Assembly (NCBI GenBank): GCA_032209605.1
Contig: JASFXZ010000037.1
Span: 2,790,001-2,854,000, forward strand
DNA length: 64,000 nt
Source: Mactromeris polynyma
Lineage: Eukaryota; Mollusca; Bivalvia; Venerida; Mactridae
Direction of reading: 5' to 3'
Part shown: positions 41,201 through 63,400 of the stretch, piece by piece
Position numbering within the stretch: position 1 is the stretch's first letter
Layout of the letters: each line of letters starts with the position of its first letter
The notes under the pieces: model-generated
Told to the model about the DNA's origin: nothing
The model's database searches: none
The model's input: the letters and a program-made list of their open reading frames with translations, nothing else
Position numbers and translations under genes: made by a program

Positions 41201-44200
41201 ATATGACCTTTCTTTGATCAGTTCACCATGCACTGTATATGTATAAAAACATCAAAGGGTCATAACTCAGTGAAAAAGTATCTGAGCGGAACAAAACGAC
41301 AAGGATGCACAACTACACTTGATGCTTATCAGTACCATGAAGTTTGGTTGAAATTCAACCAGTAGTATTGGAGATGAAGTGCAGACAAGCTAAAAGTGGA
41401 CAGACAGCTGGCCGGACAGACAGATGCCAAAGACAAAAACAATATCTCTCCCTCTGAGAAGGGAGACATAATTACAAATGTACTAGAATACCAGTTTTTC
41501 TGGTCCATGTTATTGTACAGATGGATACAGACTTATCACAGCACAGTCTGTGAGCAATTAAACTTTCAACTGCAGCGTATGTAGTATTACCATATGACAT
41601 CCCTTTAAATGTATAATAAATGGATTTACCCATGCTTAGGTAAAATAAAGACATGATATTATAAATTGATTTTCTTCCAAAAACTCATCTAAAAAATATC
41701 AGAAGACTACCATTTATACAGGTAAAATAAAATTTCCAATCCATCCCATTTTCTTTACCAGCATTTAAACATTTTTGATGAAAAACCCTGACATACTATA
41801 ATCCATACTGGGTGCTTGTAAAACTGAAACAATACCTTGGAATATTTTGTTTCCTGGAATGTATGATTAAATCTTTGCAAAGTTTGAGCATATTCTTGTG
41901 TCGAAGCTTTGCTGCCTTCGTCAAACAGATCTCCCAAAAATAACACAACATCAGGTTGGCTGTAAGCATACACTCGAGTGAATGTTTTCCTCAAGTATCT
42001 GTAAGAAAAACAAACAAAATTCATTTTCAAACAGTAAACCAAAGATCAAGTAACCAACATATTGCTTACTCTGAGAATTGTTCAGACATTAAAAATCGAT
42101 ATGAACCTGATGATAAGTTGTCAATGCCTTACAGCGCAATAGGCATAATAGATGATAAGTTGTCAATGCCTTACAGCACAATAGGCATAATAGATGATAA
42201 GTTGTCAATGCCTTACAGCGCAATAGGCATAATAGATGATAAGTTGTCAATGCCTTACAGCACAATAGGCATAATAGATGATAAGTTGTCAATGCCTTAC
42301 AGCGCAATAGGCATAATAGATGATAAGTTGTCAATGCCTTACAGCGCAATAGGCATAATAGATGATAAGTTGTCAATGCCTTACAGCGCAATAGGCATAA
42401 TAGATGATAAGTTGTCAATGCCTTACAGCACAATAGGCATAATACATAATAAGTTGTCAATGCCTTACAGCGCAATAGGCATAATAGATGATAAGTTGTC
42501 AATGCCTTACAGCACAATAGGCATAATAGATGATAAGTTGTCAATGCCTTACAGCGCAATAGGCATAATAGATGATAAGTTGTCAATGCCTTACAGCCCA
42601 ATAGGCATAATACATGATAAGTTGTCAATGCCTTACAGCGCAATAGGCATAATAGATGATAAGTTGTCAATGCCTTACAGTGCAATAGGCATAATACATG
42701 ATAAGTTGTCAATGCCTTACAGCGCAATAGGCATAATACATGATAAGTTGTCAATGCCTTACAGCCCAATAGGCATAATAGATGATAAGTTGTCAATGCC
42801 TTACAGCGCAATAGGCATAATACATGATAAGTTGTCAATGCTTTACAGCACAATAGGCATAATAGATGATAAGTTGTCAATGCCTTACAGCGCAATAGGC
42901 ATAATACATGATAAGTTGTCAATGCCTTACAGCCCAATAGGCATAATACATGATAAGTTGTCAATGCCTTACAGCGCAATAGGCATAATAGATGATAAGT
43001 TGTCAATGCCTTACAGTGCAATAGGCATAATACATGATAAGTTGTCAATGCCTTACAGCCCAATAGGCATAATAGATGATAAGTTGTCAATGCCTTACAG
43101 CGCAATAGGCATAATAGATGATAAGTTGTCAATGCCTTACAGCACAATAGGCATAATAGATGATAAGTTGTCAATGCCTTACAGCGCAATAGGCATAATA
43201 GATGATAAGTTGTCAATGCCTTACAGCGCAATAGGCATAATAGATGATAAGTTGTCAATGCCTTACAGCGCAATAGGCATAATAGATGATAAGTTGTCAA
43301 TGCCTTACAGCGCAATAGGCATGATAGATGATAAGTTGTCAATGCCTTACAGCACAATAGGCATAATAGATGATAAGTTGTCAATGCCTTACAGCGCAAT
43401 AGGCATAATAGATGATAAGTTGTCAATGCCTTACAGCACAATAGGCATAATAGATGATAAGTTGTCAATGCCTTACAGCACAATAGGCATAATAGATGAT
43501 AAGTTGTCAATGCCTTACAGCACAATAGGCATAATAGATGATAAGTTGTCAATGCCTTACAGCGCAATAGGCATAATAGATGATAAGTTGTCAATGCCTT
43601 ACAGCACAATAGGCATAATACATGATAAGTTGTCAATGCCTTACAGCGCAATAGGCATAATACATGATAAGTTGTCAATGCCTTACAGCGCAATAGGCAT
43701 AATAGATGATAAGTTGTCAATGCCTTACAGCGCAATAGGCATAATAGATGATAAGTTGTCAATGCCTTACAGCGCAATAGATGATAAGTTGTCAATGCCT
43801 TACAGCACAATAGGCATAATAGATGATAAGTTGTCAATGCCTTACAGCGCAATAGGCATAATAGATGATAAGTTGTCAATGCCTTACAGCGCAATAGGCA
43901 TAATAGATGATAAGTTGTCAATGCCTTACAGCACAATAGGCATAATAGATGATAAGTTGTCAATGCCTTACAGCACAATAGGCATAATAGATGATAAGTT
44001 GTCAATGCCTTACAGCGCAATAGGCATAATAGATGATAAGTTAACAATGCCTTACAGCGCAATAGGCATAATAGATGATAAGTTGTCAATGCCTTACAGC
44101 GCAATAGGCATAATAGATGATAAGTTGTCAATGCCTTACAGCACAATAGGCATAATAGATGATAAGTTGTCAATGCCTTACAGCACAATAGGCATAATAG

Positions 44201-47200
44201 ATGATAAGTTGTCAATGCCTTACAGCGCAATAGGCATAATAGATGATAAGTTAACAATGCCTTACAGCGCAATAGGCATAATAGATGATAAGTTGTCAAT
44301 GCCTTACAGCACAATAGGCATAATACATGATAAGTTGTCAATGCCTTACAGCGCAATAGGCATAATACATGATAAGTTGTCAATGCCTTACAGCGCAATA
44401 GGCATAATACATGATAAGTTGTCAATGCCTTACAGCGTAATAGGCATAATAGATGATAAGTTGTCAATGCCTTACAGCACAATAGGCATAATAGATGACA
44501 AGAAAAGGTAATGACAGTAGCTAACATTTGTGTTTTGAAATAGCATTCTATGAGGTTTGTTCAGAAATTATTGAGACACTATTAATTATAAGAGCAATGA
44601 AACAGAAGCAAACTTCATGTTGCATAAATAAATATTTTTAACGGCTCTCTGAATTCAAAAGATCAATGAGTTGGCATCACTAGATTGCTGTCAGGGACTG
44701 GGTATATTGCTGTCTCCGCCTTTGTCCATCAATTCATGAAGATACAATTTATTTTTCACCAACATCCATTAAACACAAGACACTTTTTTTTTAAATGACT
44801 ACATCACAATTTGACACACTGACACTGACTTGAAATGTTCAGCAGACATCAATGATCATGGCTAGTATTTCATAACAACTATACATTTTAAACAACCACT
44901 TTTTACAGTTAGCTCCACGTATCTCTACCCACAACAATTTCAGCAAGTATTGATGTTTCTAGATCCCAACACAAATGAGTAAGTTGGGTAACTATTATAT
45001 GACAAAGCACACACTAGCAGCGTACTTGACTCACACTTTCTTCCATTTCTTGATGGTAGTTATAAGTTGATAATGAATTGAAATAATTGATGTGGCTTAC
45101 CTGTCAATATCCCATCTTGCTAGAGTGCCAACAGGAAAGATTGGTTCATCTTGATATCCTTGAAGTTGTGGATCGGCTACAAGTAACAATACTTGATATT
45201 GGCCGTTATTTCTGTAACAGAATAAAAAATTCCAATGAAAATAACATGAAAGGAGTTATTGATTGTCCATGAGTAGTAGTAGAAATGCAACATTCTTAAC
45301 TTAACATATATAATAACCAAAGTCTGTTCTATATGTATATAGTATTTACAAGGGAAGCAACGTGCAAAAAATTGATAATTTCAGTATGCCTGTAGTTTAG
45401 CTCGTTTTTTACATTATTGACCAGAGCACACGTGTTGACTAAATTACCCATAATGCACCTATCAAAGTTTTACCCCACGGGGATACATGGGACTTTTGAA
45501 AGAAGACAATAGGAATTTGACTAGCCAAATTATTTCGATTCTGAGATATATTATAGACTTTGGCTGGATTTTAAAAGATCCCCAAAGTGGAAAATTTGCA
45601 TCTACCACTGTGGGATTTAGACAAAATGGGACTCAAGGGTGGGGAATTAAACCCAAAAAGACAAATTGTCTAATTCTGCAGGGTCAGTCTGCACCAACCC
45701 CCCAGCAAAATAGTGATGGGTGCGTTTGTAAGAGCTAATTAATATAACACAGAACATGATTTTATAGATGTGACAGTGTTGATGTGATAATTGCAAATAA
45801 CCGGAAGGTGCTACTCATAGCATATTATTGTGAGATTTATAAAATAGATTATTACAATGAATGTATAAATCAATACAATGAATAGATCCATACAGAAGGG
45901 TGCAACTATACAGTGAGTATTGTACTGAATTCAATATTATGTATTACAGGGCCTGCACTGTCACTCACAATTGGCGACAGAAAATAAAAATTTCCCTCAA
46001 TATCTGTGGATTGCGTGATGAAATATAGCCGACAAATGACTGAAACCGACTGGTTACAAAATTAGCTCAAGAATAAAAAAGCCAGCGCTAGCCCTGTATT
46101 TACTATTAGGTCCCATTTCAAGTCACAGCAGAACATTTTCTTCATTTACTCAAACAGTAATTGTCTTTATCACATACCCGTGCATGTTTCTACGATGCCA
46201 TAAATATCATATGGCACAGTGTGCATATAATATGCAAATGAGCGGAAAACCCAAAATGAAATCCATACGCTGTTTGCTTACAATGAACAAAACCATACAG
46301 TATTTATAAAAATATCCACATCGCCAACTTTTGATGCATCAAATAATAATGCTCATGAACGCTGCAGCTAACTAAGAACAATTACCGTTAACATGCAAGC
46401 TATGACAAATCTACTAAGCAAGTCCAGCAAAATTCTCTCAACCCACCTATCCAGTTCAGTAAGTTTATTCCAACTCAAACGATTCATGGTTCAGACGACA
46501 TCAAGACATCAGTGTACACAGGTACTTGTAAAAATTATATTTATCTTTGTTCGAGGAGCTCAGTCCTATATCACTCAAAATGAACTAGATTCTGCACACT
46601 TGATAATGATTCGAGTCAGATATATTGAATGGATTCACTGAATGCGTGTATACTGAATGACGTCACAGACTTGTTTATGTTGATGACGTCATTAAACATA
46701 TTTACTCGATGACATTTTGAGAGGAAAGGTTTTCCTTAAATTGTGCTTTACAGTTACGTTTGATTAAAGCGAATTGTTAGATATATTTAATAAACTAGAA
46801 AATGATCAAATATTGATAAATCTATGGATAATTTTAGAAATAATGATTTTGTGAATCGGTCTACTTTTTCGGGTCTTTAATTTAATGGCCTAATAATTAC
46901 TTTCGCGAAGCTGCTGTCTATATTAATGAAGCCAAGTTTATTTGTGTGTTTACCTCATTTTGGCGGGTATGTGATAAATAGAATATTAAATGAGTGTTGT
47001 ATTAGTATTTAATTTATTGAACTCGTTGAATAAAAAGAATATGAAGCTCGCCAAAGGCTCTGTGGTAATTTAGTGGTTTGTGTCCCGGATACCATGCCGG
47101 GAACCAAGCTAATGGGAATACGGGAACCAGGTCCGAGGCGATCCGGATGACATACGACCGACATCACCAAGCCGAACAGGACCTATAATAGTGAATTGTA

Positions 47201-50200
47201 TCCTAAAAGATCTACGACGACTAGACATAAACAGGAGGGTTTATTGAGGTTAGTCTACCCTTTTGATACTAAATTATCACTATATTGGCGCTGCGAGCAG
47301 TTCGTATCTGTCGATATTGATATTTTTGTTGTTTAAAAATATTGAACGGCCAAAAGTTTTTCAACTTGTGCGCAAGTTGATTTTTTGTGTTTTTCCAATT
47401 TAAATTGGGTAAATGTATTGTGTATATGTATTGCATATGTTTTGTTTATTATAAAAGTATATGGGACAAGGAGGACGAGTAGTGAGCAAGTGTTTTTGTT
47501 GCACAGTATAAGAAAGTATAATTAAAGACAATATTGTCACGTGACTTCAAAATGGCGGCGTCCGCACCAATCATGTGTAAAATTTTCTGAATTTACGCAC
47601 ATATTATTTTGTTGTAGTTTGATAATTATAATTAATGACAAGTATATAAATGTATTATTTGGGATATTAAAAAATATTTTAATAGTAAATTTATGTGTAA
47701 TTTAGCGATAGACGGTATTTAATATCAAATTTGGTAATAATTGCAGTATAACTATAACATTGTATTTGAAAATAATTATATAGTTATATAACTAATTTAT
47801 TATTGTGTTTTTTTGGGGTAATTATTATTTCTGTTGAATTAAATTACTGGCTCTAAGGAAAACATGGCTGAACAGAGAGTATTGATAAATGAATGCAGCT
47901 ACGAAGAATTATTAGCACTGCCGGGAATAGGACAAAAAGTGGCGGAATATGTAATTCAAATTAGGGACAGTGTGGATGTAATATCAGAAGAAATTTTTAT
48001 GAAAATACCAGGTTTAAGGGTCACAGAAGAACTGTTAGACCTAATTGATTTTTCAAATGTGGGTGTTTTAGAGGATAGGGACACTATGAAAAGTATTATT
48101 AGAAGGCAAGAGTCAGAGAAATTCGATTTAGAAAGGGCACAGGAGGAGATGAGAAGTAGTATTAGGCGGGAAATGTGGGCAGAAGAGGAGAGGAGAAAGG
48201 GTGAGAAAGAGGAAATGATAAGATTGTCGGACGTAATCAACCGAGGACCTAGACGGATCCCAGAGCCCAGAGATACTCCCGGTCAAAGTAAAACTGGGTT
48301 ATACATGGATACCCCTACCAGAGCAGCCACGAGTCACAAGCCGGACACATATCAATCTCCATTTGACCGCTATAGGGGGGAAAGTTACGAACATGAGGAC
48401 GTAAGACGACAACAAAGACCTTCCAGGGTGACCACAGTACCTAAATCCTTCACGTACGATGGCAAAACTACATGGCAAGCGTTTTGGCAAAAGTTTAATT
48501 CTTTCGCAATAGAACAGAATTGGGATCCGAGAAAATGTCAACAACAATTATGCTGGTGTTTAACCGGTAAAGCTAGTGATTTTTACACGTCAATTTTAGA
48601 AAGGGACCCATTTGTGAGTTTTTTTTCTATGGTGCAGAAAATGGAGAAGAGATTTGGATTAAGAGACCTTCCAGAGACAGCCCAAATGAGATTTATGAAT
48701 GCAAGACAAAAATCAGGGGAGCCTTTGGTAGAGTGGGCAGACACAGTAGCATCAATGGCAACCGAGGCATTTTCCCGTCCAGAGATGGGAATGAGAGATG
48801 GGCAAATTGATAACTTCATAGAACAACAAACGGTAATGAAATTTTGTCAGGGATGTGAAAATAGGGATGCAGGTTTATATGCTATGAACCAAAGACCACA
48901 GACCATGGACAAAGCTATGGACACCATAAGGTGGTATGAACATACCAGCCAGTCCATGGAGTTAAATAAGCCTAGAAAAGAAGTGAAACTATGTTACAAG
49001 GGGGAGGATGAAAATAATGAGGACGTCCAGGTTAATCGCACATTTGGTGAGGGAAGGGGATCTGGAGATTCGGGAAAGATATTGCAGGAAGAAACCTTAA
49101 AGATCTTGAAACAAAACAGCGAAAAGACAAGGGAGTTGGTAGAAAAACTGTCAACCGACATAGGAAAATTGGTCACAGTTATGATGTCAAGATCCAGAAG
49201 TAGGTCTCCATCTCCGCTGTTATGTTATCACTGTGGAAAACGGGGGCATTTCAAACGTGATTGTCCATCCCTACAGTCAGAAAATAAAGAGCGAGGGGAG
49301 AAAAGTGTGACATTCAGCAATAATGATCCTTTAAACCGAGCAGGGTCGGACAAAAAGGCCTAAAACCGACCCCATCTGTAGAAAGTGGCCTTAAACAGTA
49401 CCCACAAGAGAAAGAGAAGCAGTTATTTTTTGGCCCGGTATCGGAGGAAGCTGGGCCAGAGGAAGAGAGCATAACCGTCAGGCAACTAAATTCATGCTCA
49501 ATGTTTACGGTAGAGGTAACCATAAAGGGACAGGCTATAAAAGCTGTGGTAGATACTGCGGCAGAGGTAACCATCATTTCCGATAAGATATATGCAAGAA
49601 TGGAACCAAAACCAACTATAATCAAATCCGTGGTAATGCACACAGCAGGAAGAGATATGAAGATGAAAGGGTTAGTGGTAGGGCCCATTGAATTGAAACT
49701 GGGAAAACAGAAATACCTGGAGACAATATATGTGGCACCAATAGAAGATGATATGCTGCTAGGAATAGACTTCTTGAGAAAACATGGAATTGATATACAA
49801 ACCAGGCAAAGTACCCTATTGAGGGGACAGGAAGTGATACCGATGCAGGTAGGAAAATCCAAGAGCAATAGAGTAGCTAAAATAACGGTGCGGAAAAGAA
49901 CTGTTATACCACCCAATACTGCGGTTCATGTTGCATGTGTAGTGGACCAAGATATGCCCCAATTCTTGGCGGAACCGGTAAATCAAACTAAGGTTTTAAT
50001 ACCAAAATCACTCCATCCAGCAGGGAATAAGGCAAAACTGTGTATGGTTAACCTAACAGACAGATATGTAACGGTGAAGAAGCATTTTAAAGTGGCACAA
50101 GCTTGTGAAGCCTCTTCGCTAGAGTATGACCCAAGTACAGAAGAACTACGGGAAGAAGTGAAAGAGTTCAAGGGACCACTTCCAGAACATATGCTGGAAA

Positions 50201-53200
50201 TGTATGAAAAATCTACCCAATGGCTGTCCAAAGAGCAGGCAAACAAGCTGGAGGTATTGCTAGGAGAGTACCAAGATGTGTTTGCTAAGAATGCCTTTGA
50301 CCTAGGGGACTTCACACACTTACAACATACAATTGATACCGGAGAAGCACGCCCCATTAAACAAAGAATGAGAAGAACCCCAGCCTGCTTTGTGGACGAG
50401 GAAGAGAATCACATACAAAAAATGTTAGATGCAGGAGTGATACAACCATCAGCTTCCTCATGGGCATCGGCTCCAGTGCTGGTCCGGAAAAGAGATGGGA
50501 CAGTAAGATGGTGTGTAGATTATAGAGCATTAAATGCAGTAACCACTAAAGATGTGTATCCATTACCGTTAGTAGAAGAGTGTATAGATACCTTGGAGGG
50601 GAATGAATGGTTTTCCAAGGCAGATGCAAACGCAGCATATTGGCAAATACCCATAAGACATGACGATCAGAAGAAAACGGCGTTTACCACCAAGTATGGG
50701 TTGTTTGAATTTGTAAAAATGGGGTTTGGATTGTGCAACGCACCGGCTACCTTTGCAAGGGTCATGAATTTAGTAATGAGAGGGCTAAATTGGAAAATCT
50801 TACTGGCTTTTTTAGATGATATTTTGATCATGGGAAAAACGTTTGAGGAGCACATGGGGAATTTAAAATGTGTATTCCAGCGTATGAGACAGTACAAACT
50901 GAAACTGAAACCATCGAAATGTGAATTTTTTCAGAAAAGAGTAGAATTTTTGGGAAGAATGATAGACAAAAATAGCATGGAATTAAGTAAAGTGCATATT
51001 GAAGTGGTGCAGAATTGGCCATGTCCCAATAATGTTAAAGAGGTAGAGCAATTTTTAGGATTGGCAAATTATCATAGAGCATTTATACCAAATTTTGCGG
51101 AAATTGCGGGACCATTGTACACACTAACAGGAAAGAAGAAGTTCAAATGGGATACAGAGGAAGAAGAAGCATTTAAACAAATCAAATTGATTCTAATTAC
51201 TCCACCGGTGTTGGCTTTGCCTAACCAAATAGACCCATTTATACTGGATTGTGACGCATCGGACAACGCAGTGGGTGGGGAATTATTGCAAGTGCAAGGG
51301 AAAGAGGAAAAAGTGATTTCATATGGTAGTTTTGCTCTCACGAAGGAACAAAAACGATATTGTACCACCAGAAAAGAATTGCTAGCAGTAGTGCGTTTTA
51401 CGAGGCAGTTTCGCCACTACCTTTTAGGGAGAACATTTAAAGTAAGAACGGATCATGCCAGTTTAGTATGGTTGTTAAACTTCAAGGAACCTCAAGGCCA
51501 AATAGCAAGATGGATTGAAGAACTAAGTCAATACAACATGAAAATAGAACATAGAAAAGGGAATAAACATACAAATTGTGACGCTCTTTCAAGATTCCCA
51601 TATGAATTTACATGTCAACAATATCGGTTAGGAGTGCCATTAAATAAGCTACCTTGCAAAGGATGTGATAAATGTAAAAAAGCACATGAACACTGGGGAA
51701 AATTTGTAGAAGAAGTAGATGATGTGATTCCGTTGGCTCATTTTGGTGCAAGGGGAGAAGAACTCATGACGGAAAGAAGAGTGTATTCAGTTGGAAATAC
51801 AGGGGCACTGGACAGGGGTAGTACAGTATGGGGGCATAGCACAGAGAAATTGTGTAAAATACAAAGGGAAGATGGTGAATTAAAACTACTGCTAGACTGG
51901 CTTATATCCAGGACGGATCCAGCAGAAGGCACAGTATTTTTAGCTAGCCCCGAGAATAAGTACATGTGGATTAACAAGGAACTATTTGAAATAGAAAATA
52001 ACATTATATGGAAACTTCCCACAAATGATCATCAGGACCGCACAGTAGTGGTCCCTAATAGTCTGCGAAACCAGGTGTTGCACGATAATCATGATTCACC
52101 CATATCAGGTCACCAGGGATATGAACGCACAAAGGAACGCATCAAAGCAAAGTATTTTTGGTATAGGATGTGTAGTGATATAAAAACTTATGTGATGTCG
52201 TGTGCCATTTGCAACCAAAATAAGAAGGCCAGTAGACATGAAAGCACCGTTAACTATTTTTCATGCGGGAGCGCCAATGGAGAGAGTACACATTGATTTT
52301 ATGGGACCATTACCAAAGACAGCTAGGGGAAACGAGTACATTTTGATGATGGTGGACCAGTTCACAAAATGGGTGGAATGCATACCATTACCATCACAAA
52401 CGGCAGATGTAACGGCAACGGCAGCTGTTAACGAATTTTTCTGTAGGTTTGGATACCCGTTTCAAATATTTACGGATCAAGGTAGAAACTTGGAAAGTAA
52501 GTTGTTTATAACAGTGTGTGAACTTTTACAAATACACAAATCTAAAACGACAGCTTATAGACCGTCGGCGAATGGTCAAGTGGAGAGATATAACAGAACG
52601 CTAATGGACGCAGTGAGGTGTTATATAGGTAGTAACCAAAAAGAATGGGATATCAAGCTACCATTAATAGCAAGTGCTATGAGGAGTGCAGTAAATAGGA
52701 ACACAGGTTTCACACCAAATCGCATGATGCTAGGTAGAGAAAACAGTACACCAAGCGACTTGATGTTTGGAAATCTGAAGGAGACTACGGCTTCCCCGAT
52801 TCAATATGTACAAACATTAGAAAAGGATTTAAAGCAAGCACATGAGACGGCACGTCAAACCTTGCAACAAGCTCTTGTTAGAAGTAAAAAAGATTATGAT
52901 ATAAAGGTGTGGCAGAAGCAATATCAGGAAGGGGACGCTGTGTACCTGTTAAACAAGGGGTCACTGAAGGGGAAATGTAAAAAGCTTAATCCCATATTTA
53001 AAGGTCCATATGTGGTGATACTGAAATTGTCTCCATACTTGTACAGAATTAAGACAAATAATGCACTCATCACGGCCAACCATGACAGGTTGAAGTTATG
53101 CTGTGATAAAGAATTACCCCAGTGGATAAAGAGTATTCAGGGAAATCCAGACCAAAGAAATCAGTGGATACCAAACCAACCAGGCAGTGGAGACGATGAG

Positions 53201-56200
53201 GTATACTGTTTATGTAAAAAGCCCGACCGGGGGGAGTTTATGATACAGTGTGATTTCTGTGAGGAGTGGTATCACGGCCATTGTGTGAATATATCTCAAC
53301 AAGATGCGGTGGACATTAAAAAATATAAGTGCCCCACGTGCCGTGCTTAGAGCCAGTAAGGGTGGGGGTCTAGTGGGCTAATAATTATTTTTATATTTTA
53401 CAGATATGGCAGACAGTGAAGTTAAAAGAAGTTGGAAGAGGGAACGCGATCTGTGTGTTCCCAGTATAGTACATCAGGTGAGGGGGAAAACGGCCCAGGG
53501 AAAGCTGTTTAACCCCAAGGATATGATATACCAACTGGGTTGGGAAGAGGTATCGGACAGATTGTTCCGGGAATCGGTACACGACCAGTACAGACTGGCT
53601 GTGAGACTCGGTGACAATGAGTGGATAGGGGAAGCCCGGTATTATGCAGGCTTGAGACAAGCCGGTAATCCAAACTGGGTGGAGGAAGTGATGCCAGAGG
53701 TACTCGGGGAACGCCAGAAAGATAACCGGCAAAGACCCTCAGTGAGTGAGTCACGGCATAGGAGCCGTAGCCCTATAGAAAGAGGGCGTGAATATAGAGG
53801 GTATGGGGTTAGGAATAACTCAGAGCAGTCACAGAGACAAGGAGAAGGAAATGAGAGATCACGGCAGGACGGCTGTGAACGAAAAAGAGATACGAATAAA
53901 AGGGATCAGTCACAGAGGCGAGGAGAAGGAAATGAGAGATCACGGCAGGACGGCTGTGAACGAAAAAGAGATACGAATAAAAGGGATCAGTCGCAGAGGC
54001 GAGGAGAAGGAAATGAGAGATCACGGCAGGACGGCTGTGAACGAAAAAGAGAACAGGTTAGGAGACCTGGTGAACACAGGAACTCACGGCATCAAAGCTG
54101 TGAAAGGAGGAGGGATGTTCACATGAGGCAGGAAAGGCACTCGGAGGATAGAAACAGGCAGGAAAGAAGTGGAATAAGAGAGCGAGAGACCAGGCAGGTG
54201 TGTAGGAGGGGGGCAGAATTGAAAGTGACTGTCCGGCCTACTCATACCAACAAGAAAAGTCAGGTTTGTCCAGCAAAGGGGTGTGGTGCCATGAGTAATC
54301 ACATCAAACGGCATGTGCAGTTCCAGCATATCCCGAAACTCTTTTGGGAGGAGTCCCAGGGTTCCAGTACACCAGGGGAACGAGTACTGGCCCTTGGAAA
54401 TTTGGCCAGATGGATAGTGGGGGAAGCAGATGTGAAGAAACTCCAGACATTTGCGAACCGACATGTTGGTATCCGTGACAGATCCACTCCAACCGAGTCT
54501 GCCCAAACGGCCATGAGAGCTGTTTGCCAGAGTGCTGGTTGGGAGCTGCCAAGGGTTTTCACACTAACACCCATTAATTCTCCGGCGGCGCTTATACATT
54601 GGAGGTTGATGTGTGTAATGATGGACAATCTGACTGGGTCTCAAAAACAACAATTTCTGACCAATCCTACGGGGACGAGAGTAGATACTCGGGAAGCCAG
54701 AAAAGATAAGGAGGACAAGGAAGACAAGGAAGACGGAAAAGGGGAGAAGGAGGGCAACAGAAACGTCCGTACCTCCTTAAGTCAGACAAGTTCCAACCCA
54801 GAACCCATGGAAGATAAGGAGAGTTCAGAGGGTGGGGCAGGAGGAGACAAAGAGATGGAGGTGGTAGAAATACTCCAGAATATTTCATTGCTGGAGAGTC
54901 ATAGTAAGCCAGACTCGGTACAGACGGCCACGGAAATGGAACTGCTGGCAACTAATAACAAGTCTGATGCAGCCGAGACAGCTAAGGATAAGGAATTACC
55001 AGCAAGTGATAGTAAGTTGGGCTCGGTACAAACCGTCCCGGGAACATCGGTGGAAGAACAGCCGAGGGTCTCAGGTCCAAAAACCTACGCACAGGCAGTG
55101 GCATCAACTCCACCAATGACAAAGCAGAGGGGACCCACGCGGTCAGGGTTTGACTCGCATTTCCACTTGGACAGAACGGCCCTAGCACTGTTTAAGCAAC
55201 CCTGGGTGGAAATGAGCAAGATCTGGGAAGTCAAACAGAACCCAGCCCCAGAGTACCCGATCCAAATCATCGGAGGAGTTATGGTGTTTTGTGATCCCGA
55301 GAGATATGCTACAGTAAAGTTCCCGGAGAATTCCAATTTTCGGGTAGCAGTTGGGATACACCCAAAGAAAGCGCATGCCTTTGGACCAAGAGAGGAGGCT
55401 ATTTTTAAGGAGTTGATCCACAACCCTCATACCTCAGCAGTGGGGGAAGTGGGATTAGATCACTCAGTGCCCAGAAAAGAGTGGCAGGAGCAGGAGAAGG
55501 TGTTACACCGGGTGTTGGAATATGTAACCACCCAGAAGGCTTTGGTCCTCCATATCCGGGGACCAAAGAACAACCCGGTAGCCTTAGAAGTATATGACAG
55601 GTGTAGGGAGATAGTAAAACAACATTGTTCCCGACAGCAGCCTATCCACCTGCACTGTTTTATGAGCGGCCTCAGAGTATTAAAGGCTTGGAGGACAGAC
55701 TTCCCAAATTGTTATTTTGGGTTTACAGCCAGGGTTACGACCTTTAACCCTAGGCAGCTGCAAGCCCTCAGAGGAGTACCTAGTGATCGCCTTTTGATAG
55801 AGACAGATTCTCCCCATTTACAGACAGCAAAGGGCCTGGTCAACACCCCAGCTTACTTGGGGGACATTGCAGCGGCAGTGGCCAAGGCAAGGAGGGTCCC
55901 ACTGGAAGCCATCTTGATGGACACCACGGACAATGCCCGACGGGTGTATCACTGATGGACATCAGGAAGAGACCCCTGGTAGAAGAGGAAAAATCGGTAC
56001 CCGGTCTGAGTACTGGGTAGGGGGAGCATTTAAGAGAGGAAGCAGTGTGGTAATTTAGTGGTTTGTGTCCCGGATACCATGCCGGGAACCAAGCTAATGG
56101 GAATACGGGAACCAGGTCCGAGGCGATCCGGATGACATACGACCGACATCACCAAGCCGAACAGGACCTATAATAGTGAATTGTATCCTAAAAGATCTAC

Positions 56201-56502
56201 GACGACTAGACATAAACAGGAGGGTTTATTGAGGTTAGTCTACCCTTTTGATACTAAATTATCACTATAGCTCACTTCATATCATTTTATTCAACTCGTT
56301 CAATAAATTCAATACTAATACAACACTCATTTAATATCCTCTATTTATGCGTTGTCATCTATAGGTACCTGTTAATGCGAGGAAACTTCGGCCATCTATA
56401 ACTCTGGATTTGATACACCAAGTATTCATTGATGAAGACAACAATAACGGTGAGGAGAGCAAACGTCTTTAACCAATTCGTACTCATTCTCGTAGACTTC
56501 AT
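35279..56502 (-). CDS. Cdc1/Ted1/MPPE1-like metallophosphoesterase, 8 exons, 354 aa
   Basis: Exons (5' to 3'): 56502-56369, 45211-45101, 41998-41836, 40872-40735, 39465-39328, 38595-38545, 36749-36554, 35412-35279. They sum to 1065 nt, divisible by three, with GT-AG junctions throughout. The protein has an N-terminal membrane anchor ([17 protein letters not shown]), calcineurin-like motifs [34 protein letters not shown] and SAHWHK, and a C-terminal helix ([17 protein letters not shown]) ending CRRR. Cdc1/MPPE1 (PGAP5) enzymes act in the ER/Golgi on ethanolamine-phosphate of GPI anchors; that role is from the family. The usual GNHD is GDND and the first motif is DPQ, so metal ligands differ from textbook phosphoesterases. 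Intron 1 hosts the retrotransposon; intron 2 hosts the 42-bp array. MPPE1 itself versus a sister subfamily is unresolved. Confidence 0.88.
35720..36290 (+). repeat. 22-bp minisatellite, about 26 copies
   Basis: The unit is TCATGAATATCAAATCTGTA plus CT. A 'ctgtact/ccgtatt' alternation in the first half gives a 44-bp higher-order period; 'cggtact/cagtact' variants follow. It lies in the intron between exons 7 and 8 of the metallophosphoesterase gene. Confidence 0.95.
37750..37872 (+). repeat. 61-bp direct duplication
   Basis: Two copies of a segment starting ACATGATAAATCATTACAAG and ending near CAGCTGAGACA, with one or two differences. It is intronic. Confidence 0.85.
38756..38840 (+). repeat. 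Dispersed repeat copy
   Basis: Begins ACAAGAACTATCTTTAAAAA, related to the repeats at 461, 30545 and 40918. Its downstream part (AAGATTTG, GTGCAACA) matches 40918-40990. Confidence 0.55.
39690..40200 (+). repeat. 26-bp minisatellite, about 19 copies
   Basis: The unit contains AATGCAATTACAAGGAATCT and ACATAA. Some units carry CATTTACAAGG or ATCTAATACAA instead, forming a second-order pattern. It is intronic (between exons 4 and 5 of the metallophosphoesterase gene). Confidence 0.95.
40918..40990 (+). repeat. Dispersed repeat copy
   Basis: Begins AACAAGAAATATCTTGAAAA. Shares AAGATTTG and TGTGCAACA blocks with 38756-38840. Confidence 0.55.
41245..41480 (+). repeat. Bivalve-type dispersed repeat with GACAGACAGA tail
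   Basis: Shares with 28737-28960 the order: gggtcataactca, a 'gcacaactacac' block, a 'gttggttgaaattc' stretch, 'attggagatgaagtgc', then GGACAGACAGCTGGCCGGAC and a ...GAGAAGGGAGACATAATT end. Intronic. Confidence 0.65.
42108..44505 (+). repeat. 42-bp minisatellite, about 57 copies
   Basis: The unit contains GATGATAAGTTGTCAATGCC and TTACAGCGCAATAGGCATAA. One unit near 43780 lacks 12 bp; the rest keep 42 bp. Variation is confined mainly to two sites (gcg/gca/gcc and atag/atac). Because 42 is a multiple of three, it is open on both strands (851 and 812 codons). It lies inside the intron between exons 2 and 3 of the metallophosphoesterase gene and has no splice support. Confidence 0.97.
46972..47056 (+). 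repeat. Left arm of a foldback element split by the retrotransposon
   Basis: About 75 bp here (from ATAAATAGAATATTAAATGA to GAATATGAAG) is the inverted copy of 56274-56350 with only a few mismatches. Removing the retrotransposon and one GCTC copy leaves a hairpin with a roughly 15-20 bp loop. No transposase is encoded, so it is a MITE or foldback element of unknown family. Confidence 0.8.
47061..47284 (+). repeat. 5' LTR (224 bp)
   Basis: Starts TGTGGTAATTTAG and ends CTAAATTATCACTATA, with an imperfect terminal inverted repeat. I found no difference from the 3' LTR by eye. A TATAATA at 47184-47190 is the best TATA-box candidate. No AATAAA is present. The LTR is short for the group. Confidence 0.95.
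47286..47302 (+). other. Primer binding site
   Basis: TGGCGCTGCGAGCAG begins one base after the 5' LTR. Its complement ends ...GCAGCGCCA, like the 3' end of an animal serine tRNA (acceptor stem plus CCA). The tRNA identity is inference from memory of serine tRNA ends. Confidence 0.7.
47303..47863 (+). promoter_or_regulatory. Retrotransposon leader with E-box, YY1-like site and upstream ORF
   Basis: The noncoding leader before gag is AT-rich except for one spot: CACGTGAC at 47538-47545 and CAAAATGGCGGC at 47548-47559. The first matches the USF/MITF-type E-box and the second the YY1 consensus. The ATG inside the YY1-like site opens a 12-codon upstream ORF (47552-47590). A possible splice donor GGTAAATG lies near 47409. 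Binding is inferred, not shown. Confidence 0.5.
47864..49363 (+). CDS. Gag polyprotein with N-terminal helix-hairpin-helix and CCHC knuckle
   Basis: A 499-aa intact ORF starting AACATGG after the leader. Residues about 6-62 match the ComEA-type helix-hairpin-helix pattern ([20 protein letters not shown], then [17 protein letters not shown]), a nucleic-acid-binding fold not usual in Gag. Residues about 75-125 are a charged coiled coil. A retrotransposon capsid region follows at about 190-390 ([19 protein letters not shown], then [13 protein letters not shown]). A short [10 protein letters not shown] tract leads to one zinc knuckle, [14 protein letters not shown], near residue 460. Gag assembles the particle and packages RNA. 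The last codons overlap the pol frame at a slippery site. Confidence 0.93.
   Translation: MAEQRVLINECSYEELLALPGIGQKVAEYVIQIRDSVDVISEEIFMKIPGLRVTEELLDLIDFSNVGVLEDRDTMKSIIRRQESEKFDLERAQEEMRSSIRREMWAEEERRKGEKEEMIRLSDVINRGPRRIPEPRDTPGQSKTGLYMDTPTRAATSHKPDTYQSPFDRYRGESYEHEDVRRQQRPSRVTTVPKSFTYDGKTTWQAFWQKFNSFAIEQNWDPRKCQQQLCWCLTGKASDFYTSILERDPFVSFFSMVQKMEKRFGLRDLPETAQMRFMNARQKSGEPLVEWADTVASMATEAFSRPEMGMRDGQIDNFIEQQTVMKFCQGCENRDAGLYAMNQRPQTMDKAMDTIRWYEHTSQSMELNKPRKEVKLCYKGEDENNEDVQVNRTFGEGRGSGDSGKILQEETLKILKQNSEKTRELVEKLSTDIGKLVTVMMSRSRSRSPSPLLCYHCGKRGHFKRDCPSLQSENKERGEKSVTFSNNDPLNRAGSDKKA
49330..49336 (+). promoter_or_regulatory. Putative -1 ribosomal frameshift site, T TTA AAC
   Basis: The heptamer TTTAAAC lies exactly in the X XXY YYZ register of the gag frame (CCT TTA AAC). 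The pol frame is -1 relative to gag. It is closed by TGA at 49324-49326 and open from 49327, while gag ends at 49363, so the heptamer sits inside the 37-nt overlap. A weaker A-rich site (C AAA AAG, 49351-49357) lies just downstream. I did not identify a stimulatory pseudoknot. Confidence 0.75.
49330..52296 (+). CDS. Pol, 5' part: protease, reverse transcriptase, RNase H, integrase N-terminus
   Basis: The reading frame is -1 to gag; its first ATG is at 49501 but expression probably comes by frameshifting. Protease: [12 protein letters not shown] and LLGIDFLR (DTA in place of the usual DS/TG). Reverse transcriptase: [36 protein letters not shown] and the catalytic FLDDILI. RNase [24 protein letters not shown] and [10 protein letters not shown]. 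The integrase zinc-binding region has H-H-C-C spacing ([18 protein letters not shown], then CAICNQNK). The frame then drifts off the integrase pattern and stops at 52296; the homologous reading continues in another frame from about 52240. Confidence 0.9.
52202..53350 (+). CDS. Pol, 3' part: integrase core, GPY/F module, PHD finger
   Basis: Continues the integrase in the +1 frame relative to the 5' part. The nominal first codon at 52202 is GTG and not a likely start; homologous sequence begins about 52240. The DDE core is complete: [16 protein letters not shown] and [16 protein letters not shown] module ([11 protein letters not shown]) follows. The last 50 residues are a PHD finger: [20 protein letters not shown], then EEWYHGHC and YKCPTC, giving the C4-H-C3 set with aromatic residues where BPTF/ING-type fingers bind methylated H3K4. 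It probably steers integration towards active chromatin. The frame break may be a mutation, a sequencing error or recoding. Confidence 0.88.
53386..53405 (+). promoter_or_regulatory. Candidate 3' splice site before the third ORF
   Basis: TATTTTTATATTTTACAG ends at 53403, two bases before the ATG at 53406. It is a pyrimidine-rich tract with a consensus acceptor. Env-like third ORFs of some Gypsy elements are expressed from spliced subgenomic RNA, so this placement suggests the same strategy. The donor was not identified. Confidence 0.5.
53406..55955 (+). CDS. Third ORF: Arg-rich repeats, C2H2-type zinc finger and TatD nuclease domain
   Basis: An 849-aa intact ORF between pol and the 3' LTR. 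Residues 1-110 are an unrecognised helical region ([19 protein letters not shown]). Residues about 140-220 hold three near-identical 27-aa repeats rich in Arg, Glu and Ser (81-bp units). A zinc-finger-like [16 protein letters not shown] lies near 287, then a helical region, then a Lys/Glu/Asp-rich linker. Residues about 580-849 are a full TatD metal-dependent hydrolase: [56 protein letters not shown]. All expected metal ligands are present. TatD proteins are DNases; the closest animal type is TATDN2. The function in the element is unknown. There is no signal peptide or membrane helix, so it is not an envelope gene. Confidence 0.9.
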   Translation: MADSEVKRSWKRERDLCVPSIVHQVRGKTAQGKLFNPKDMIYQLGWEEVSDRLFRESVHDQYRLAVRLGDNEWIGEARYYAGLRQAGNPNWVEEVMPEVLGERQKDNRQRPSVSESRHRSRSPIERGREYRGYGVRNNSEQSQRQGEGNERSRQDGCERKRDTNKRDQSQRRGEGNERSRQDGCERKRDTNKRDQSQRRGEGNERSRQDGCERKREQVRRPGEHRNSRHQSCERRRDVHMRQERHSEDRNRQERSGIRERETRQVCRRGAELKVTVRPTHTNKKSQVCPAKGCGAMSNHIKRHVQFQHIPKLFWEESQGSSTPGERVLALGNLARWIVGEADVKKLQTFANRHVGIRDRSTPTESAQTAMRAVCQSAGWELPRVFTLTPINSPAALIHWRLMCVMMDNLTGSQKQQFLTNPTGTRVDTREARKDKEDKEDKEDGKGEKEGNRNVRTSLSQTSSNPEPMEDKESSEGGAGGDKEMEVVEILQNISLLESHSKPDSVQTATEMELLATNNKSDAAETAKDKELPASDSKLGSVQTVPGTSVEEQPRVSGPKTYAQAVASTPPMTKQRGPTRSGFDSHFHLDRTALALFKQPWVEMSKIWEVKQNPAPEYPIQIIGGVMVFCDPERYATVKFPENSNFRVAVGIHPKKAHAFGPREEAIFKELIHNPHTSAVGEVGLDHSVPRKEWQEQEKVLHRVLEYVTTQKALVLHIRGPKNNPVALEVYDRCREIVKQHCSRQQPIHLHCFMSGLRVLKAWRTDFPNCYFGFTARVTTFNPRQLQALRGVPSDRLLIETDSPHLQTAKGLVNTPAYLGDIAAAVAKARRVPLEAILMDTTDNARRVYH
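53823..54056 (+). repeat. 81-bp tandem repeat inside the third ORF (about 3 copies)
   Basis: In-frame units encode 27 residues each with the motif [13 protein letters not shown]. The copies are nearly identical, so the expansion is recent, and the unit length preserves the frame. Confidence 0.85.
56028..56045 (+). other. Polypurine tract
   Basis: TTTAAGAGAGGAAGCAG runs directly into the 3' LTR at 56046, the expected place for plus-strand priming. A second purine run, GGGTAGGGGGAG, lies about 10 bp upstream. Confidence 0.65.
56046..56269 (+). repeat. 3' LTR (224 bp)
   Basis: Same length and apparently the same sequence as 47061-47284. It is followed directly by GCTC, matching the four bases before the 5' LTR. 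The junction lies about 100 bp from the end of exon 1 of the metallophosphoesterase gene (minus strand). Confidence 0.95.
56274..56350 (-). repeat. Right arm of the foldback element
   Basis: Inverted copy of the left arm at 46972-47056. Its outer end lies about 20 bp from the splice donor of exon 1 of the metallophosphoesterase gene at 56368. Confidence 0.8.
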
Positions 56503-60434: not shown

Positions 60435-63400
60435 ATGTGGCGTTGGCGTGTGCGATATGACGGGTACGGTGGACAAGATAATGGAGGGTTTTTCAGTCTG
60501 CATAAACAAGCAGGCGACGGGGACATGGGCAGACGACAGTCTCAGATGCAAGTAATGCCGTGGTCAGATCAATTTCGTCCTGCGCTAAACAGTATTTACA
60601 TTCCCAGTGATGAACCTGATGATGATGAATTCGTGGTCGTTGACGAGGTCGGAGGATATGACCGTCATTCGTGGGTCAAGGTAGAAGATACCTCTGGAAA
60701 TTCAACATCGAAAACAATAGATTTACCAGGGTCATTTCCAAAATTTTATCCGAACTTCTGGCAGCATCTAGCCTCGTTCGAGAATGAGAATTCAGTGAAA
60801 GTTAAGGCTAAGGTTCGCGATTTTGACACTAACGTTAGCGAGGAAACGAAGGAGGCAGAAATAAACGATCTATATGGAAACCACCGACCGATGTTCATGG
60901 CCGTCTTTGTTCGTTTGTTGTTGATTGCCCACAACGTGATGACCATTTGGCGGGTTACGGAAGCGTACGACAACAATATGTACTGGCTAATGGTACTAGC
61001 AAATTTCTTTCTTATTTTCGAAGGACAAATTGTGGTGGTAAAACGTCATGGCATGGATTATTCTTGGTAAGCGAATTTTATTAAATTCTACGGCTAAATT
61101 TGCTTAAATATGATTATTTTGCTAAAATTCCATGTTTAATACTTTACAAATTTTTCAAGAATGGTCAAAAACAGAAACGGTTTTCATCAAAGATACATGA
61201 CGTGTTCACTCGGTAATCAGCCATTGTCTTTGAATCAGAGATTACCATGAAATGATAAACTGTACGTACATTTATGAATAGGAATTAACTCTAATTATAG
61301 TTGGGTCCCTTTACAAAATAATCGTTATAAAAGTTCATCAGAAGGAGTTTATATGCTACTGTTTTTTTGTTACATATTTATTTGATATTTCACATATCGT
61401 TTAACGAAGCCCATGTACATACCGTTTTCGAAATGATTTTAAGTTTCTCAAATCTATTTTGCATTCATTATAGTTTTATCATTAAATATTCAGTTCGGTA
61501 TGTAAAAATATATTACATCGTACGTATCGGTACTATGCACATTTACAATGCCGGAATTTAGATAGGCCTTTGTAAGTATTGTCGTCTTGTCATAGAAACT
61601 CAAAGTAATGGACAAACTGAATGGTTTCAATATTGTCATTTCATCCTGATGTTTCTTCATTAAAACATTTATTCAACTCATATAGTATCACTAACGATTC
61701 ACAAATCTTTCTGTACCTGAAGTACGAGGATTCGTAGACAACCTTCATTTTTTCCTTACATGCGCTATTTCAAAGCTTAGCTTTACATCACACAATTCTT
61801 TAACATTGATTGTTCATGAATTTAAATTATTTTTTTGTAATTATGATAACTGTACCTGTGTTATTGTTTCCATAGCAACCTCATATGGGTATAACTAGAG
61901 CATGCTAAATTTGGAGCTTTTATCCGATCTCGTCCTTTGATATTCTATAATTGTATACTCCTACAGGTGGTGTCCATGTTTTATGTTCTATAATTGTATA
62001 CTCCTACAGGTGGTGTCCATGTTTTATGTTCTATCTCGCATCTACGCTCCCGGCAATTTGGCTTCTACAGCTCAATCAATATGAACGTTTTGTGGAATCA
62101 CAAACTGTGTCAACTGTAGCTTCACCCCTGGCGATGGCATCAACAACGATGTCCACTACAGTGACCCAAATCATATGTTCCAATTTGACTTCCGTCAATA
62201 TGACATCAACTCCATCTGTGACAACATTAGCAGCAACAACTACAGTAGCATCGGCTGGGGCAGAAGTAATATGTCTCTCTGTCACATTCTCTATTTAACC
62301 ATATTATCAAAATCATTTCGTCTTCATCTTACAATACAGGCCTTATTCAGCCGATTGGGCAAAAAAACACGAAAATAAAACAATAACTCTGAGAGTATGT
62401 ACAGTAAGATTAAAGTAAGAAATTTAAGTTATTTAAAAGTTGCATGATTACTTATACATATCAGAGAAATCTTAGCCGGTAATCTTATTTCAGTATGCAT
62501 ATTTCGTCTTGTTGCAATCAGTATACCCACTAAACAATGATAACATGAATGTTTCTCATTTTCACTTTCTATGTTTGGTTAATTATCTCTTATGTTCATC
62601 ACCAGTTTTCATTCACATTACTATGGTGGCATATATCTGCCACCAGTTCACTACTTAATTAACTAGATAATTATGTGGTTATCACGTTAAAGAAACTATA
62701 TCACTACTTAATTAACTAGATAATTATATGGTGGCAGTTGTGGGCACTATCAGACAATTTTTCGTGCTCGTGAAATATGCCACCATACATTTCAGTCGAT
62801 ATATCAGTATGTAGTTCTAGTATAACTCTCCTTTAGCATCGGGAGCTTATATCGATACCTTCATGTGAATGTAACGGTAGTGGAATCAAAGCGCTGTGTG
62901 GGAGCGTATTCTAGTATGTGTGTCTGGGTTTCCAACCAGTCATTGTACTGGCTTGTTCTTTCTGACGCAAATGGCAATGGACGAGAATCCGGGGCATATT
63001 GTCCATTTTTCTAATAATGATTTGTTTTCTATTGTAGGCACCCATTGGTACGTTGGACAACAATGTATGGGTTATTATTGTTGAAGAATCGCTCGTGTAT
63101 TTACTGGTAATCAGCCGCTGGTTACTACCACGTGGTAACGTATCACGTGACTTCCTGTCTGATCTTCTGCTAGAATTCCTCGCCATCGCTTCTGATATTA
63201 TGGAACTTCTCGCAGTTTTCGACGAGGACCGGGTACGTGGGAATCTACCCTTAACATACGCAGTACTAGCCATCTGGTCAGCGAGTTTTATACAGTTTGT
63301 GCCGATCCTCATGCAGAAAAGAAGTTTCCGGCGCGTTCGCAGTCCTCGCGTGAAGGGTTTGGCGCGTGTTTGTGGAGAACATTTTGTGGAAATTGTGGTC

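Follow-up and report, generated by a model that had tools for sequence, protein, structure and literature searches.

Why should a bivalve LTR retrotransposon carry a gene for a TatD-type nuclease? The first-pass annotation of the DNA analysed here, a stretch of 64,000 nucleotides from Mactromeris polynyma (the window), had pointed to an intact reading frame of 849 codons between pol and the 3' LTR and had assigned its C-terminal part to the TatD hydrolases. We found that this frame, ORF3, is indeed open from 53406 to 55955 and is flanked by identical LTRs and by the target-site duplication GCTC. In the following we describe the element, its copies and relatives and the probable expression of ORF3, and we weigh what the encoded protein may do.

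The element and its ORF3 protein

The window element (47061-56269) belongs to the Ty3/gypsy type of LTR retrotransposons and was inserted recently; it has paired LTRs, a target-site duplication, gag and the order PR-RT-RH-IN. Its features are the following.

47057..47060 (5' copy) and 56270-56273 (3' copy): target-site duplication GCTC, 4 bp
47061..47284, + strand: 5' LTR, 224 nt, TG...TA ends, 100% identical to the 3' LTR
47286..47303, + strand: probable primer-binding site, TGGCGCTGCGAGCAG..., immediately 3' of the 5' LTR
47864..49363, + strand: gag, 499 aa, with an N-terminal helix-hairpin-helix, a gag/PNMA-like region and a CCHC knuckle
49501..52296, + strand: pol part 1 (protease, RT, RNase H, H2C2), in a frame open from 49327
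52202..53350, + strand: pol part 2 (integrase core and C-terminal PHD finger, the latter at about 53207-53341), overlapping part 1 in a different frame
53380..53403, + strand: 3' splice-acceptor-like site, 2 nt before the ORF3 ATG
53406..55955, + strand: ORF3, 849 aa, TatD-bearing accessory protein, open over 849 codons
56032..56045, + strand: probable polypurine tract, immediately 5' of the 3' LTR
56046..56269, + strand: 3' LTR, 224 nt, identical to the 5' LTR

The LTR termini read TGTGG...CTATA and thus differ from TG...CA ends, which are a common but not a defining mark of Ty3/gypsy elements. A tRNA gene scan of the window found none. The helix-hairpin-helix at the start of gag (47885-47947; Pfam HHH, E 1.1e-5) is, to our knowledge, unusual for Gag. 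The element is flanked by a 59-nt inverted repeat (92%) with arms at 46980-47038 and 56282-56340; the insertion target may have been a near-palindrome, perhaps a MITE. Elsewhere the window holds a 42-nt tandem array (about 60 units, 41956-44527) with open frames of 851 codons on one strand and 812 on the other, as well as two likely host animal genes, namely an ORF with a Tmem26 match (60435-61070, + strand) and one with PKD-type matches and a WSC match below the cut-off (19184-22585, - strand).

That pol precedes ORF3, as the first-pass annotation had it, is correct insofar as the integrase ORF ends at 53350, but pol is not intact in the window copy, where the H2C2 part and the part with IN core and PHD finger lie in different frames. 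Single-frame pols of 1528 to 1596 codons were found at five of the 18 other-family loci (L119, its close copy L120, L125, L127 and L132). Since pol is one frame at these loci, damage or a sequence error is likelier than a programmed frameshift in the window copy. A chromodomain was not found at the C-terminus of the integrase; a PHD finger stands there instead, and it is nearest to PHF8 and CXXC1 among solved structures. Both are H3K4me3 readers, so that integration near active promoters is plausible. A closely related pol, P0238 (1379 aa, jgi contig of 6471 nt), has an RNA 2'-phosphotransferase (Tpt1/KptA, E 4e-43, residues 1065-1234) after the integrase core and before the PHD finger, so that the lineage holds a further RNA enzyme; this Pfam domain occurred in P0238 only among the 120 pol rows listed.

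ORF3 itself is composed of several modules.

53454..53705, + strand: N-terminal helical domain, residues 17-100 (AlphaFold2 and HMM)
53810..54052, + strand: three 81-nt tandem repeats in a basic, Arg-rich linker (repeat search of the window)
54267..54329, + strand: CCHH zinc-finger-like motif, C288, C293, H303, H308 (alignment)
54363..54671, + strand: middle helical domain, holding a 10-residue motif (alignment and AlphaFold2)
55149..55952, + strand: TatD nuclease domain, Group II (HxH), residues 582-849 (Pfam, alignment, structure)

A Pfam search, proposed earlier as a check on the TatD assignment, matched TatD_DNase (PF01026) end to end (profile 1-253 of 253, residues 582-849, 126.2 bits against a cut-off of 27, E 1.9e-36). 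The domain is therefore complete, and all six metal ligands are in place (H585, H587, E681, H716, H750 and D801), in line with the motifs named in the first-pass annotation. Of 159 aligned domains (the window and 158 hits, the element location being shown for part of them), 142, the window among them, have letters at all six positions, and 138 of these carry the same six residues; over all columns of this alignment the frequency of the commonest residue averages 0.46. We used this alignment-based count instead of a regex motif survey, which was too crude (HxH in 86/96, ETD[SA]P in 78/96). According to the motif rule in the available text of PMC10085689, the HxH motif places the domain in Group II and not with TATDN1.

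The structural comparisons agree with this assignment. The best sequence match to solved structures was YcfH (E 4.1e-16), with TATDN3 at 6.5e-4 and 11 sequences in total, and the TatD barrel fold is supported by Foldseek matches of the AlphaFold2 model to 6l25 (E 3.0e-12) and 1yix (1.4e-11). Twelve of the 15 Foldseek matches at E <= 0.001 are named TatD or deoxyribonuclease and three metalloprotein or amidohydrolase; among viral structures a Yasminevirus protein was the single match below 1e-3. The model is confident over residues about 17-100 (ten-residue blocks of 86-96 over residues 21-80), about 284-420 and the TatD domain (blocks of 84-98, with one exception of 63), while 345 of the 849 residues, in low-confidence linkers, have a pLDDT below 50. 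The part upstream of TatD gave no PDB fold match (best Foldseek E 2.8), and Pfam found TatD only in ORF3 and no envelope domain. Profiles matched the finger and middle domain in 98 and the N-terminal helical domain in 46 of 106 long homologs; C288, C293, H303 and H308 are invariant across 31 aligned sequences, window included.

Copies, selection and relatives

Searching the same 793-Mb genome with ORF3 gave at least 67 matches, a lower bound since 53 of 659 candidates were scored. The matches listed include seven close copies besides the window (90 to 96% identity), three with in-frame stops and some with gaps. The LTR query had 23 matches in this genome. By their coordinates all seven close copies lie between LTR matches, so that ORF3 does recur in copies with the same LTRs, on which the first-pass annotation had made its claim depend. 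Of the eight LTR pairs compared, seven are 99.0 to 100% identical and one is 90% identical; several insertions are therefore young. Two further LTR pairs are bordered by 4-bp repeats, TATG and TAGG. At one tandem locus (G000:C232:1036949-1048957) three LTRs and two ORF3 copies are bounded by the same CAGC bases at both ends, an arrangement that is a mark of recombination between copies; these two ORF3 copies are nearly identical and not independent.

We also examined 18 neighbourhoods of divergent TatD ORFs, 13 of which have RT and/or IN upstream in the same order. L119 has identical 247-nt LTRs and open gag, pol and ORF3. No RT or IN occurred in the examined stretch at L122, L123, L133, L135 and L136, whose TatD ORFs are element remnants or possibly host-adopted genes.

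The association with the PHD finger was assessed with an IN query, which had at least 113 matches (108 of 843 candidates scored). After merging of pieces within 700 nt, the matches listed comprised 103 IN loci and 48 ORF3 loci. Among them, ORF3 lay downstream (same strand, <=4.5 kb) of 21 of the 37 IN loci reaching the PHD finger, of three of the 17 with >=45% identity that end before it and of none of the 49 non-PHD loci with <45% identity (Fisher p 2e-10 for 21/37 against 0/49, the copies being not independent). An IN match was found upstream of 24 of the 48 ORF3 loci; the other 24 had none among the matches listed. Sixteen of the 37 PHD-reaching loci had no ORF3 match within 4.5 kb among the matches listed, and the PHD-type locus L137 (G000:C2:3332995), with an open pol of 1539 codons, showed nothing ORF3-like within about 2.9 kb after the PHD finger. 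With ORF3 at 21 of 37 loci and its lack at L137, ORF3 is typical of the lineage, not universal.

The TatD domain of ORF3 is under purifying selection. When each of the seven close copies was compared with the window copy, dN/dS was 0.12-0.26 for TatD in 7/7 comparisons and 0.32 to 0.44 for whole ORF3. The pooled values are 0.19 for TatD (50 changes at 4422 nonsynonymous sites, 74 at 1302 synonymous ones), 0.37 for whole ORF3, 0.37 for finger and middle domain, 0.36 for the N-terminal domain and 0.54 and 0.60 for the linkers. Every comparison shares the window copy, so that the comparisons are not independent and the pooled counts repeat the window's own changes. Four copies gave 0.30 for IN-PHD, the individual values lying between 0.09 and 0.56. 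In the other families, 16 of 18 loci were used and gave 26 pairs above 60% amino-acid identity. TatD dN/dS was 0 to 0.34 with Fisher p <0.05 in 16 of these pairs (three families); four pairs with L129 or L135 were not significant (0.37, 0.45, 0.48 and 0.61), two were without difference and four, with L133, were saturated at synonymous sites. Neutral decay of the TatD ORF between copies, the outcome that the first-pass annotation had named as speaking against it, is contradicted by the values from both sets.

A protein search with the TatD region found 106 proteins at E <= 0.001 among 2192 candidates, most rows being without a named source. The named sources include molluscs (such as Pinctada, Saccostrea, Dreissena, Mya, Ruditapes, Mercenaria, Haliotis, Pecten and Elysia), echinoderms (Diadema, Acanthaster, Strongylocentrotus, Lytechinus and Anneissia) and the brachiopod Lingula. 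Among 30 homologs aligned, the Mercenaria protein P0050 is the most similar over whole ORF3 (45%), and P0025 from Acanthaster joins H2C2, IN core, PHD, finger and TatD in one protein. The TatD domain is more alike than the linkers in 10/10 homolog pairs. In P0103 and P0104 TatD is joined to a NADAR domain, and the profiles for the finger and middle domain otherwise present find no match in them.

Contig sizes were compared between 156 ORF3 rows (104 of the 106 from the TatD-region search and the first 52 new ones of a further search) and the 120 pol rows listed. Eight sizes were common to both, against a mean of 0.35 and a maximum of 4 in 2000 jittered draws, and in 8/8 cases both proteins fit on the contig. 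Judging by size, and by the same source label in seven of the eight, these rows appear to stem from the same contigs. Over nine linked pairs, window included, ORF3 and pol identities correlate with r 0.78 (22 and 17 of 20000 permutations); r is 0.41 (574 of 20000) without one close pair and one outlier, and since it leans on these two, the signal of co-inheritance is weak.

A quick tree was made from 89 TatD domains. One of its branches (SH-aLRT 98) separates 46 family members, the window among them, from 43 low-scoring TatDs that are mostly bacterial in look. A quick tree calls for caution, and this one compares the family with these hits and not with verified TATDN1, TATDN2 and TATDN3. P0158, which we take to resemble TATDN2, is basal and has a long branch. 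The TatDs of the elements probably have a single origin. The earlier suggestion that such elements explain 'TATDN2-like' annotations in invertebrates applies to some named proteins, as the Mercenaria 'putative deoxyribonuclease TATDN2' (P0120) and the Diadema 'YcfH-like' protein (P0127) lie inside the family side of the tree.

The best 80 of 566 confirmed genome-contig stretches have 25-35% identity and bacterial titles, and the seven viral-contig loci match the query at 26-31%. The finger and middle domain are missing in 47 of the 49 proteins P0160-P0208 and present in P0173 and P0204, which are apparent family members. A bacterial source or contamination of the window was rejected, as the bacterial-looking TatDs are far weaker matches. 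Hits labelled Sedimenticola and Candidatus Thiodiazotropha are most simply read as host DNA in symbiont bins. A legend to the giant squid Hox cluster, in the available part of PMC6962438, names a 'putative deoxyribonuclease TATDN2' as a neighbour; this gene is possibly a copy of an element of the window type.

Expression and possible role of ORF3

From the pol stop to ORF3 the sequence reads TTTTTATATTTTACAG, then AT, then the ATG. Scored with simple hand-set weights, the acceptor-like site in this interval comes first among the 829 AGs of the element and first among the 3793 of the window's + strand; three of the 6578 AGs on both strands, itself included, score as high. When the local 79 nt were shuffled 5000 times with dinucleotides preserved, its score was never reached. 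It is kept with small changes in five of the seven close copies, those whose alignment covers the site. At 11 of the 13 pol-preceded loci (L121 and L134 omitted), about five families by our grouping, we scored acceptors from the PHD end to a point 200 nt inside the ORF3 frame. In all 11 the top-scoring one has a rank from 1 to 9 in a total of 686 to 1018 AGs and is followed by an ATG after 1 to 5 nt; the frame behind it is broken in L128, L130 and L131. No consistent splice donor was found, the best candidates differing between families. The strong and recurrent acceptor before the ATG makes it probable that a spliced subgenomic RNA serves as the message for ORF3, as it does for retroviral env, and we hold this view with fair confidence.

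The reading we prefer, with a probability of about 0.5, is that a Ty3/gypsy lineage with a PHD-finger integrase carries ORF3 as an accessory nuclease, made from spliced RNA, that acts on hybrids, ends or integration intermediates of the element. The protein would be made from its own RNA. We propose, with low confidence in each of these further steps, that basic linker, CCHH finger and helical domain might make it a nuclear or nucleic-acid-bound factor, that a two-metal TatD site might cut, as a TATDN2-like 3' exo- or endonuclease brought to RNA:DNA hybrids, free ends or integration intermediates, and that ORF3 might thereby clear structures that block the expression, completion or integration of cDNA. 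Hybrids and ends are preferred as targets because LTR elements form both during their life cycle. The anatomy does not imply a direct role in reverse transcription, since a protein that is expressed separately does not have to enter the particle; the probable separate message fits action in trans at least as well as action inside the particle.

The available text of PMC10085689 states that Group II TatDs typically bind two metals, that AP endonuclease activity is reported for TATDN1, TATDN3 and each of the three TatD paralogs of E. coli, and that human TATDN1 and TATDN3 are also reported to be 3'-5' exonucleases. For human TATDN2, cutting of RNA and resolution of R-loops have been reported (PMC12709183, which in its available part cites another paper for this), and the same source gives a germ-cell role of TATDN2 in medaka.

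A protein not produced as part of Gag-Pol could just as well work outside the particle, and it is conceivable, if rather unlikely, that ORF3 is a counter-defence factor working in trans in the producing cell, where it would, for instance, destroy stray cDNA that is sensed, as the host nuclease TREX1 does with retroviral DNA, or small RNAs that silence the element. Its position and probable splicing, like those of retroviral accessory genes and without fusion to Gag-Pol, its clade-specific occurrence and the faster evolution of the linkers compared with the catalytic domain would suit such a factor. On the globular domains, however, no positive selection is seen (pooled dN/dS 0.19 to 0.37, single values <=0.83), the linkers reach at most about 1.1, and there is no known target. 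Some viruses carry a dUTPase, and by analogy ORF3 could be an AP endonuclease that repairs abasic sites in element cDNA or primes the repair of integration gaps. We consider this doubtful: the Group II ligands are kept and the paralogs named above are reported to have this activity, but TATDN2 is not among the enzymes assayed in the available text of PMC10085689, and Pfam finds no uracil-related domain in the ORFs of the element.

Two further explanations deny ORF3 an enzymatic part in the cycle. ORF3 occupies the position of env and has long, basic linkers of low confidence, and it might accordingly be a structural or envelope-like protein whose TatD fold serves binding and not catalysis; with the ligands so widely identical among the homologs and TatD as the only Pfam domain, this is very improbable. 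LTR elements can transduce host genes, so that a host TatD gene might have been caught between the LTRs by chance as a functionless passenger. ORF3 is present, however, in 7/7 close copies found and in several diverged families of the same genome, its dN/dS is well below 1, related proteins occur in three animal phyla, and further conserved modules precede TatD, which leaves this explanation hardly any credit. A single-locus artefact or passenger gene was rejected on the LTR-bounded copies, the purifying dN/dS and the divergent loci behind RT/IN.

Turning back to the accessory nuclease, we think it rather probable that a long-lived lineage of animal LTR elements with a PHD-integrase, present in molluscs, echinoderms and brachiopods, encodes a spliced, catalytically active nuclease other than RNase H as a working part of its cycle, and that many 'TATDN2-like' gene models of invertebrates are copies of it. 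Gag and Pol are usually thought to be sufficient for LTR retrotransposition. A nuclease gene under selection in a whole lineage would point to a step left uncovered by host enzymes or opposed by the host, and suggests an unrecognised step in element copying or host evasion. Moreover, the element may offer a testable system for RNA:DNA hybrids, cDNA ends and integration repair in retroelements, and invertebrate annotation could be corrected where pieces of elements carry the names of host TatD genes.

Relation to known systems

In the open-licence literature we found no published report of a TatD ORF in a retroelement, Repbase and closed journals being outside this scope, and neither TatD nor PHD is mentioned in the main text of PMC8905726 or PMC6238403, both of which treat LTR elements of molluscs. 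With the Group II TatD DNases (YcfH, TATDN3, TATDN2), ORF3 shares a complete Pfam domain, the HxH motif, six ligands and a YcfH-like barrel model; it differs from them in that a retroelement carries it and that a CCHH finger and two helical domains precede its TatD domain. With Ty3/gypsy elements (Metaviridae) and chromoviruses, the window element has in common gag, the PR-RT-RH-IN order, LTRs, a 4-bp target-site duplication and a chromatin-reader-type domain at the end of IN. In chromoviruses this reader is a chromodomain, whereas here it is a PHD finger of the PHF8/CXXC1 kind, followed by a nuclease ORF.

Retroviruses and errantiviruses have a spliced env as third ORF. As in these, the third ORF of the window element lies between pol and the 3' LTR, with an acceptor just before its start codon; theirs encodes an envelope protein, whereas ORF3 encodes a predicted nucleic-acid enzyme. 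Additional ORFs downstream of pol and before the 3' LTR have been described already, according to the available text of PMC7264820. A parallel is offered by orchid Ty3/gypsy elements with an ORF for an AlkB m6A-demethylase, described in the available part of PMC9289625 as a recent acquisition in Phalaenopsis. In both cases a captured nucleic-acid enzyme forms an extra ORF of a gypsy element; as far as that part of the source goes, the orchid case concerns a plant, a demethylase and a recent event, whereas the present one concerns a nuclease with relatives in three animal phyla.
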